Positions 44,305 through 46,175 of a stretch of DNA of 47,108 bases are shown here, in pieces. The notes beneath the pieces are model-generated. The model had not been told where the DNA came from, did no database searches, and saw only the letters and a program-made list of their open reading frames with translations. The position numbers and the translations under genes are program-made. The DNA is from Acidobacterium sp. (GTDB lineage: Bacteria; Acidobacteriota; Terriglobia; Terriglobales; Acidobacteriaceae), in contig PKVY01000035.1 in the NCBI GenBank assembly GCA_003131625.1, forward strand, positions 1 through 47,108, written 5' to 3'. Within the stretch, counting starts at the first letter, position 1, and every line of letters begins with the position of its first letter.

Positions 44305-44426
44305 CCTGAATTTCATGCAGAGTGGCTGAGGGACGGGCCCTGTGACGCCACGACAACCGGCCTGAGCAATTCGGGACAACGGTGTCAACTCTCGCTCGCC
44401 GTGAGGCGGGGAACATGAGATTCGGG
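44305..44426 (+). ncRNA. SAM-I (S-box) riboswitch
   Basis: P1: CCTGAATTTCATG (44305-44317) pairs with CATGAGATTCGGG (44414-44426) over 13 bp with two wobbles. P2: GTGGC (about 44323-44326) with GCCAC (44347-44351), containing the kink-turn and the core blocks CTGAGGGACGGGCCC and TGTGACGCC. The junction has CGACAACC (44351-44358), and P3 is CCG...CGG with an inner CCTGA/TCGGG stem. The core GGTGTCAA lies at 44381-44388, and P4 is CTCGCC-GTGA-GGCGGG (44395-44410). These elements and their order match the S-box class that binds S-adenosylmethionine and shuts off methionine genes. The downstream gene is a threonine-synthase-like enzyme. Confidence 0.92.
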
Positions 44427-44514
44427 GTGCAGGCTGTATCGCATCTCGCGCAATCCTCAGTAGTGCCGAAGTTAGCGAAGTACGACGTCACGTGCCCGTA
44501 TATTTGCCGACGCC

Positions 44515-44532
44515 GCTCTCGAAAACGAGGGC
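44515..44532 (+). promoter_or_regulatory. Hairpin sequestering the ribosome binding site
   Basis: GCTCTCG (44515-44521) pairs with CGAGGGC (44526-44532) around an AAAA loop, burying the GAGGG ribosome binding site four to nine bases before the ATG at 44537. No T-tract terminator lies between the riboswitch and the gene, so this is the likely translational expression platform. Confidence 0.55.
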
Positions 44533-44536
44533 TGGA

Positions 44537-45808
44537 ATGGCTGCTGCTTACGAACTGCGATGCCGGGAATGCGGGAAGCGTTACGAGAACGCTCCGCTGT
44601 CCATCTGTGACGAGTGTTTTTCTCCGCTGGAAGTGGTTGTCGATCTGGAGGCCGCGCGGCACACCTTTACGCGCGAGACCATCGCGGCCGGGCCGTCGAG
44701 CATGTGGCGCTATCAGGCGCTGCTGCCGGTTCCGGACGACTATGTTCCGACGACGCCGGCGGGCTGGACTCCGCTGCTGCGGGCGCCGCGGCTCGCAGAG
44801 CGGATTGGCGCGCGGAATCTGTGGATCAAAAATGACGCGGTGTGCCTGCCGACGCTGAGCTTCAAGGATCGCGTGGTGGCGGTGGCCCTGGCGAACGCGC
44901 AGACGTTTGGGTTCGACACGGTTGGCTGCTCGTCGACGGGGAACCTGGCGAATGCGGTGGCAGCGCAGGCGGCGCGGCTGGGGCTGAAGTCGTACATCCT
45001 GGTTCCGGCAGATCTGGAAGCGGCGAAGATTCTGAACACGCAGGTGTACGGCGCGACGCTGGTGCGGATCAACGGCAACTACGACCACGTGAACCGGCTG
45101 TGCTCGCAGATTGCGGATCGCTACAACTGGGGATTTGTGAATGTGAACCTGCGGCCGTACTACGCGGAGGGATCGAAGACGGTGGGCTTCGAGATCGCTG
45201 AGCAGCTGGGCTGGAGGCTGCCGGACAACGTGGTGGTCCCGATGGCGGGCGGATCGCTGATCGTGAAAATTCGCAAGGCGTTCAAGGAGCTGATCGCGCT
45301 GGGGCTGGTCGAAGAGAAGGAAGTGCGGTTCTTCGGCGCGCAGGCGACGGGGTGCTCGCCGATTTCGACGGCGGTGAAGAACGGAGCGGACACGATCGAG
45401 CCGCAGCGGCCGGCGACGATTGCTCGGTCCCTGGCGATCGGGAATCCGGCGGACGGGATCTATGCGACGCGGGCGATTCGCGAGAGCCGCGGCTGGGCCG
45501 AAGACGTGTCGGATGTGGAGATTGTCTCGGCGATCCAGGAGCTGGCGGAGACCGAAGGCGTGTTTACCGAAACGGCGGGCGGCGTGACGACTGCGGTGAC
45601 GGCGCGGCTGTACGCGCACGGGCGGATTCATCCCGACGAGCTGACCGTGGCGTGCATCACCGGCAATGGGCTGAAGACGACGGACGTGCTGCAGGGAGCG
45701 TACGAGCAGCATGCGGCGATTCGTCCGCGGCTGGGGGATTTCGAAACGTACCTTGCCGAGCGGAACGAAGAGAGCGAACTGGAGCTGGGAGGGGCCTATG
45801 TCAGTTAG
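44537..45808 (+). CDS. thrC: Threonine-synthase-like PLP enzyme
   Basis: 423 residues from ATG 44537. N-terminal zinc ribbon with C9, C12, C24 and C27 (RCRECGKRYENAPLSICDEC). Fold-type II PLP core with the Schiff-base Lys110 in PTLSFKDRVV, the phosphate/substrate loop CSSTGNLANAVAA, GGSLIVKIRKAF and the distal ETAGGVTTAVTARL. By family it converts O-phosphohomoserine to threonine. It sits behind a SAM-I riboswitch and overlaps a sulfur-carrier gene by 11 bases, which would fit a homocysteine-forming variant better. The symbol is therefore only by homology. Confidence 0.85.
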   Translation: MAAAYELRCRECGKRYENAPLSICDECFSPLEVVVDLEAARHTFTRETIAAGPSSMWRYQALLPVPDDYVPTTPAGWTPLLRAPRLAERIGARNLWIKNDAVCLPTLSFKDRVVAVALANAQTFGFDTVGCSSTGNLANAVAAQAARLGLKSYILVPADLEAAKILNTQVYGATLVRINGNYDHVNRLCSQIADRYNWGFVNVNLRPYYAEGSKTVGFEIAEQLGWRLPDNVVVPMAGGSLIVKIRKAFKELIALGLVEEKEVRFFGAQATGCSPISTAVKNGADTIEPQRPATIARSLAIGNPADGIYATRAIRESRGWAEDVSDVEIVSAIQELAETEGVFTETAGGVTTAVTARLYAHGRIHPDELTVACITGNGLKTTDVLQGAYEQHAAIRPRLGDFETYLAERNEESELELGGAYVS

Positions 45809-46175
45809 GGTTTTGCTGCCAGGAGCGTTTCAGAAGCACACCAACGGGACGCGGGAGATTCAGTCGAGCGCGGGGAATTTGCCGGCGCTGATCACGGAGA
45901 TCGAGACCACGTTTCCGGCGCTGAAGACGCATTTGCGCGACGAGAGCGGTCAGGTGCGGAAGTTCATCAACTTTTACGTGAACGAGGAAGACATCCGGTT
46001 TCTGGGGAACGAGAAATATGCGTTCCAGGATGGGGATGAAGTATTAGTTATCCCCTCCATCGCCGGGGGCTGCGCGCCCCGCGACACGCCCTTCGGGCAA
46101 ATGCAAATGCAAAACTGGGGCGTGTGTAGTTGCTGCTCGTATTGCGGGCAGGAAGAGTGCATCTGCGGGGACTAG
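45798..46175 (+). CDS. MoaD/ThiS-like sulfur-carrier protein with Cys-rich C-terminal tail
   Basis: 125 residues from ATG 45798, with GGAGG at 45788-45792 five bases away; the gene overlaps the thrC-like stop. Residues 1-91 form a ubiquitin-like MoaD fold (SVRVLLPGAFQKHTNGTREI, INFYVNEEDIRFL, DGDEVLVIPSIAGG). The di-glycine at 90-91, where the thiocarboxylate should form, is not at the end: 34 residues follow, with seven cysteines (GGC, VCSCCSYCGQEECICGD). Carriers such as QbsE and HcyS are known to be made with extra residues after GG and trimmed by a JAMM protease. No such protease gene is in view. Confidence 0.85.
   Translation: MSVRVLLPGAFQKHTNGTREIQSSAGNLPALITEIETTFPALKTHLRDESGQVRKFINFYVNEEDIRFLGNEKYAFQDGDEVLVIPSIAGGCAPRDTPFGQMQMQNWGVCSCCSYCGQEECICGD
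46065..46125 (+). repeat. Palindrome-rich element inside the MoaD-like 3' coding region
   Basis: GGGGC (46066-46070)/GCCCC (46076-46080), GCCC (46088-46091)/GGGC (46095-46098), an outer pair ACACGCCC (46084-46091)/GGGCGTGT (46118-46125), and a tandem AAATGC (46099-46110). It begins exactly at the GG codons and is read in frame. It has the look of a REP-like intergenic element. Confidence 0.45.

Follow-up and report, generated by a model that had tools for sequence, protein, structure and literature searches.

Riboswitch, enzyme gene and carrier gene

The window, that is, the whole stretch of 47,108 nucleotides (nt) analysed here, is one contig (C79; contigs, genomes, loci and families bear our own handles, C, G, L and f) of a 148-contig assembly of Acidobacterium sp., which is 93.7% complete. 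Between positions 44310 and 46175 of its forward strand lie, in this order, an S-adenosylmethionine (SAM) riboswitch of the SAM-I type, a gene for a pyridoxal phosphate (PLP) enzyme of the threonine synthase superfamily and a gene for a small sulfur carrier protein. This arrangement is very probably a SAM-I-controlled metM-metO pair, the products of which would make homocysteine, the precursor of methionine.

The riboswitch (44310-44421) matches the SAM-I (S-box) family RF00162 with 79.1 bits (E 4.4e-17), well above the gathering score of 44.4, and spans the whole covariance model (1-108 of 108); it is a genuine SAM-I aptamer and the sole SAM-I in the 5.39-Mb assembly among the candidates scored (150 of 401 at a first look). 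The enzyme gene (44537-45808, ATG start) encodes a MetM-like protein of 423 residues with matches to PALP (2.5e-69) and to the threonine synthase model TIGR00260 (thrC, 285.2 bits); its nearest relatives, 90% identical, are encoded in acidobacterial genome bins. The gene for the MetO-like carrier (45798-46175, 125 residues, ThiS family, 1.1e-9) overlaps the enzyme gene by 11 nt, and the best solved relative of its product is 3dwg chain C (E 1.3e-17), which ends at Gly-Gly and which we take to be CysO of Mycobacterium tuberculosis. The preliminary description of this DNA had named a complete S-box aptamer, a PLP enzyme of the threonine synthase family and an overlapping MoaD/ThiS-like gene, all of which are borne out; a cysteine-rich tail at the end of the carrier went unmentioned there.

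Conservation of the arrangement

Among 250 genomes of the host's class an orthologue of the enzyme is encoded in 140, at 142 places. At least 134 SAM-I matches were found in 125 of the genomes, and 97 of them (in 96 genomes) precede the enzyme gene, on its own strand, by 85-282 nt; these riboswitch counts are lower bounds (Rfam scan with stricter filters). At no fewer than 98 of the 142 enzyme places there is a carrier match in the interval from 7 nt before to 779 nt behind the end of the match to the enzyme, the remaining 44 being without a carrier among the matches listed, which does not by itself amount to absence. Because an aptamer so often stands upstream of the enzyme and a carrier so often close behind it, the riboswitch-enzyme-carrier arrangement is beyond chance. 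In four of the five genomes of genus g51 the two genes are split, and there the carrier has a SAM-I of its own, 120-184 nt upstream.

Several loci hold further genes beside the enzyme (names in single quotation marks were read from the sequence only). One (L083) comprises enzyme, carrier, CysH, a 'siroheme-type' gene, Asd and 'LysC'; another (L084, genome G174) comprises enzyme, a frame fusing the carrier to ThrB, 'LysC', canonical ThrC and 'Asd'. The fusion (L084:4836-6062) is one reading frame with a ThiS domain (1.7e-13) and a homoserine kinase (TIGR00191, 238 bits vs 168). SAM-I, enzyme and E1 follow each other in L116, L117 and L118, the identity of E1 having been checked in L116 only; Asd and, in the same locus, a 91-residue carrier are added in L117, and a cysteine-desulfurase-family protein, Asd and the carrier in L118. 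In Neomarinimicrobiota, L165 holds enzyme, carrier, 'E1', ThrB, 'LysC' and 'Asd'. These clusters unite the making of O-phosphohomoserine with the charging of the carrier. In L119, thrB lies directly behind the enzyme gene.

SAM-I elements were also seen before genes of other kinds: before a class-V aminotransferase gene of the desulfurase kind, followed by an E1-like gene (L124:4746-7471), before a desulfurase-like class-V aminotransferase gene, followed by cysteine-synthase-like and acetyltransferase-like genes (L122:1465-4950), and, in four genomes of family f6, before a cystathionine gamma-synthase-like gene (L111:3429-6935, L112:1345-4780, L110:1379-2849, L113:1366-2838). Neither the enzyme nor MetX was counted in these four genomes, and there was no MetA match; in L111-L113 a short aspartate-kinase-like protein is encoded between the SAM-I and the cystathionine gamma-synthase-like gene, with Asd behind the latter in L111 and L112, L113 stopping within the gene.

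Distinction from threonine synthase

In an alignment of 45 clade members with eight ThrC (solved structures in four cases), one plant ThrC and five further threonine-synthase-like rows, the clade of the window enzyme departs from ThrC by T88 to L, N157 to R, R160 to Y and Q164 to S (45 of 45 each), by S155 to N (44 of 45), by N191 to L (43) or Q (2), and by N188 to G (38) or S (7), in the numbering of the T. thermophilus enzyme. Several of these residues of T. thermophilus ThrC presumably bind the substrate phosphate, and all seven positions, T88, S155, N157, R160 and N188 among them, are invariant in the eight ThrC. L88, R157 or Y160 occurs in none of the five other threonine-synthase-like rows. 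Common to the clade and ThrC is the PLP lysine (K61 of ThrC, K110 of the window enzyme, which shares the SFKD motif of ThrC), and N154 is likewise retained in the clade; four cysteines of the window enzyme (C9, C12, C24 and C27), zinc-ribbon-like in arrangement, are invariant.

A phylogenetic tree of 61 rows parts 44 clade members from nine ThrC with a support of 100/98, the outcome that the preliminary description had envisaged for such a tree, and a 100/100 branch separates CysM and CysK from the clade plus ThrC; the window enzyme is thus not on the cysteine synthase branch. As the clade members were picked by similarity, the informative part is where canonical ThrC lie: those encoded in the same genomes, like those of known structure, are placed opposite the clade. 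An actinobacterial sequence (L211) and cyanobacterial ones group with the window clade. MetM of S. albulus, according to passages of PMC12172450 (citing Hasebe et al.), is a homocysteine synthase with a SAM riboswitch upstream and a metO gene, and the carrier gene beside Microcystis thrC resembles this metO. By alignment and tree, the window enzyme appears to be a MetM orthologue distinct from ThrC; the link to S. albulus MetM is indirect and runs over the Microcystis relative, which is 51.6% identical to MetM (PMC12172450, in the passages available). The window enzyme is a case of likely misannotation: it passes a threonine synthase model yet belongs to the MetM-type group.

Routes to homocysteine in the genomes

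The window genome encodes canonical thrC followed by thrB (homoserine kinase) on contig C124, and a third, more distant threonine-synthase-like gene on C70. MetX was not detected in it (best match 5.1e-23, against 2.5e-103 or better for the full-length MetX counted in other genomes), and neither was MetA. Contig C100 carries together a CysM fragment, a JAMM gene, CysO and an E1-rhodanese gene, those for JAMM and CysO with short runs of N; therefore a system for processing and charging a carrier is present in this genome. The preliminary description had proposed a search for genes of these kinds, and the outcome is in its favour for this genome: a second canonical thrC exists, so that the enzyme gene is not the only thrC of the genome, and genes for JAMM, CysO and E1-rhodanese are present. 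As to the standard homocysteine genes, neither MetX nor MetA was detected, and one cystathionine-gamma-synthase/lyase-like gene is present.

Across the class, the enzyme (140 of 250 genomes) and MetX (80) seldom coincide; both were found in 10 genomes and neither in 40. Family f5 (53 genomes) has MetX in 51 and the enzyme in 0, family f6 (55 genomes) the enzyme in 33 and MetX in 0, and family f1 (58 genomes) the enzyme in 45, MetX in 16 and both in five; in the remaining families (84 genomes) the numbers are 62, 13 and five. These family-wise counts are not independent events, and a Fisher value of 2e-22, which ignores kinship, is not used as a probability. MetX was counted from E 8.5e-148 to 2.8e-51, the last two of the 80 (4.6e-76 and 2.8e-51) being fragments, and hydrolase-like matches from 1.8e-47 on were dropped; by the own cut-off of the MetX model TIGR01392 none of the 250 genomes would have been counted, despite full-length matches of up to 493 bits. 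The phyletic pattern and the gene content of the window genome suggest that the window enzyme stands in for the missing acylhomoserine route; this could account for methionine synthesis in many acidobacteria in which neither MetX nor MetA was detected.

A proposed pathway and its alternatives

Gene order, riboswitch, paralogy, gene content and phyletic pattern are the basis of the assignment as a metM-metO pair; for the chemistry, the processing of the carrier and the direction of the switch, published MetM/MetO and CysM/CysO serve as models. At low SAM the RNA switch would permit expression of the enzyme-carrier pair. The MetO-like carrier would then lose its residues beyond Gly-Gly, probably to a JAMM protease, before an E1 enzyme adenylates it and a sulfurtransferase converts it to the thiocarboxylate. 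The MetM-like enzyme would take O-phosphohomoserine made by ThrB, eliminate phosphate and add the sulfur of the carrier to give homocysteine. At high SAM the switch is predicted to bind its ligand, lower expression and shut the pair off, leaving O-phosphohomoserine to the separate canonical ThrC. The preliminary description had proposed homocysteine synthesis from O-phosphohomoserine and the carrier thiocarboxylate, and the genome context lends this support; it is not a new pathway, because MetM/MetO is already in the literature with this very reaction. New here is the acidobacterial pair. Independent genomic support for the published chemistry comes from the reading frame that joins carrier and homoserine kinase and from the SAM-I that the split-off carrier has to itself.

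A number of observations weigh against the assignment. The window enzyme passes the equivalog model TIGR00260 (285.2 bits against a cut-off of 167.1); since the genome's own canonical ThrC also scores 285.2 bits, this model does not separate the two. The five other threonine-synthase-like rows outside the clade also deviate in part from ThrC (A88 in four, E157 in three, G188 in three), and when every row of the tree is counted, the 44 clade members share a branch supported at only 95/76. ThrC of Microcystis makes threonine from O-phosphohomoserine in vitro, and the authors are sceptical that it fully acts as MetM in vivo (PMC12172450, as far as the passages available go). At an assembly completeness of 93.7%, the failure to find MetX could reflect a gap; the window genome has one full-length cystathionine gamma-synthase/lyase-like gene, which reaches none of the curated cut-offs of the models listed, and the alternative homocysteine routes sought were those of MetX and MetA, with the HcyBio type (DUF39) lying outside the search. 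Within the class, enzyme and MetX do occur together in the 10 genomes mentioned, no SAM-I was detected directly upstream at 45 of the 142 enzyme places, and a close canonical ThrC, meaning a match to that of the window genome at E 1e-70, is missing from 32 of the 140 genomes with the enzyme, 27 of which belong to family f6, with more distant ThrC types outside the search. Two loci (L107 and L108) have, one after another, SAM-I, enzyme, MetY, MetX, a MetW-like gene and ThrB, with no carrier adjoining this cluster (MetY, MetX and ThrB of L107 were checked, the other genes of both loci being read off the DNA). Co-occurrence with E1 was tried as a discriminating test and rejected; E1 is not diagnostic because the query matches in 247 of the 250 genomes.

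L107 and L108 apparently have two homocysteine routes side by side in one cluster, and each of their genomes gave a single, weaker carrier match (5.3e-15 and 1.6e-15, respectively).

Some of these points would be accommodated by a bifunctional enzyme that makes threonine as well as homocysteine in the cell, the presence or absence of the carrier deciding the product. The activity of the Microcystis relative (in the passages of PMC12172450 available) and the 32 genomes without close canonical ThrC speak for it; in those lineages threonine may be a further product of this enzyme or may come from a synthase of another type. The window genome and 107 others of the 140, however, do have a close canonical ThrC, and repression of the sole source of threonine by SAM would be costly, so for the window we regard bifunctionality as unlikely.

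It is also conceivable that homocysteine is made from O-phosphohomoserine and free sulfide (or with CysO), and that the adjoining carrier serves some other sulfur transfer. In the family-f4 loci L107, L108 and L119 no adjoining carrier was seen, and their genomes have one carrier match each, of 1.6e-15 to 5.3e-15, which is the level of CysO-type carriers. Set against this are the carrier's place shortly after the enzyme, seen in no fewer than 98 of the 142 places of the class and in 77 of 81 further loci, its co-regulation even when split off, and its fusion to ThrB in one genome, all of which make such a scheme very improbable. That the enzyme is an ordinary second threonine synthase, turned down by SAM and next to a carrier by chance, is the least credible explanation, for all that it passes TIGR00260 (285 against 167 bits), that its Microcystis relative makes threonine in vitro (again from passages of PMC12172450) and that thrB follows it directly in L119: canonical thrC-thrB is present in the window genome, residues that all eight ThrC retain have been replaced in 44 or 45 of the 45 clade members, a carrier is the neighbour in 45 of 47 loci not titled acidobacterial, the enzyme rarely co-occurs with MetX, and four genomes of one genus have SAM-I in front of a carrier that lies apart from the enzyme.

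Occurrence beyond the class

GTDB genomes were scanned with an alignment of 25 class sequences, and the best 80 of 586 loci were kept; by title they belong to acidobacteria, Cyanobacteria, Nitrospinota, Nitrospirota, Neomarinimicrobiota, Omnitrophota and others. Together with one locus of the actinobacterium Nonomuraea gerenzanensis these make 81, of which 77 have a carrier downstream (32 of the 34 titled acidobacterial, 45 of the 47 others); it was not found in L159, L180, L186 and L194. The Nonomuraea locus (L211) has the same order as the window, with SAM-I (68.7 bits), an enzyme 53.6% identical and a carrier ending in Gly-Gly. When nine of the 80 loci (L161, L165, L168, L170, L177, L180, L194, L196 and L208) were scanned for RNA families, SAM-I was found in L168 only; the switch therefore does not invariably accompany the enzyme-carrier pair. 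The MetM-type group is thus also present in Cyanobacteria, Nitrospinota, Nitrospirota, an actinobacterium and others.

In L168 (7275-7787) the carrier is fused to a NIL domain, and short 'NIL-like' proteins adjoin the carrier in L170 and follow E1 in L208. The last of these loci has an apparent fusion of a 'ThiS domain' to a 'cysteine synthase' (L208:4641-5744), and its cluster comprises 'JAMM-like', 'sulfite-reductase-like', 'TusA-like', 'enzyme', 'carrier', 'E1' and 'NIL-like' genes.

Carrier tail and leader

By alignment to 3dwg and to orthologues, Gly90-Gly91 (46065-46070) would be the C-terminal glycines of the mature window carrier if its tail were removed. The tail beyond Gly-Gly (46071-46172) comprises 34 residues, is rich in cysteine and has the motif CCSYCGQE[ED]C-x-C, common to five genomes (the window, G087 and G212 with loci L044 and L047, L131 and L132); therefore trimming would be needed for thiocarboxylation, and a cut by JAMM would be the simplest way to free the glycines. 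In the fetched loci of the class (42 genomes), 43 carriers either adjoin the enzyme or are separated from it; three of them end at Gly-Gly, 33 have one to five extra residues and seven have more than five (one being the ThrB fusion), and 22 of the tails start with Cys. In loci not titled acidobacterial, 34 of 45 carriers end at Gly-Gly. One may speculate that MetO is a pro-protein in a small acidobacterial subclade, its cysteine-rich tail binding metal or sulfur and being cut by JAMM only when sulfur is available, as a second, post-translational gate below the SAM switch; we consider this rather doubtful.

Between aptamer and enzyme gene, the last 75 nt of the leader, in their minimum-energy fold, form a hairpin (44516-44531, CUCUCG-AAAA-CGAGGG) that buries the ribosome-binding site GAGGG (44527-44531) and is a possible translational expression platform. 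A hairpin enclosing the ribosome-binding site was seen in six of 21 folded leaders (L043, which is the window, L077, L078, L079, L132 and L133), counted by eye and without a shuffle control; all six are close relatives, and the letters of the stem differ in L078 and L079. A competing terminator-like site (44480-44495) has five pairs, with one such site found against 0.2 expected. For the window leader, translational control seems likelier than a terminator.

Comparison with known systems

Among the published systems, MetM/MetO of Streptomyces is the closest counterpart. MetM reportedly converts O-phosphohomoserine to homocysteine with thiocarboxylated MetO, as is said of the 2024 work of Hasebe et al. 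in Appl Environ Microbiol. With it the window pair shares the threonine-synthase-like PLP enzyme, the adjoining carrier, the upstream SAM riboswitch and, as the putative substrate, O-phosphohomoserine; it differs in being acidobacterial, in the 34-residue tail that its carrier has after Gly-Gly, and in that it is known from the genes alone. We recognized no literature report of this pair in Acidobacteriota, in a search that was only partly aimed at Acidobacteria and that left subscription papers mostly aside. Operons of carriers with cysteine synthase are described in passages of Iyer et al. 2006 (PMC1779556), in the main text of which the phrase threonine synthase has 0 occurrences.

To canonical ThrC (class I) the window enzyme is related by family, by the SFKD motif and by passing the thrC model, and it differs at the seven positions substituted in its clade (T88L, S155N, N157R, R160Y, Q164S, N188 to G/S and N191 to L/Q). 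The CysM/CysO/Mec system of M. tuberculosis resembles it in the logic of PLP enzyme plus carrier, with 3dwg chain C as the best solved relative of the carrier, and the window genome also has the CysM fragment, JAMM, CysO and E1-rhodanese genes; the window enzyme, however, lies on the threonine synthase side, and its product would be homocysteine. In Wolinella, a protein thiocarboxylate (HcyS, with HcyD and HcyF) is the sulfur source for homocysteine, and the tail of the carrier is trimmed by a JAMM protease. The tailed thiocarboxylate carrier serving homocysteine is thus a feature that the window pair would share with this system, whereas the Wolinella enzyme is a MetY-type sulfhydrylase acting on O-acetylhomoserine.

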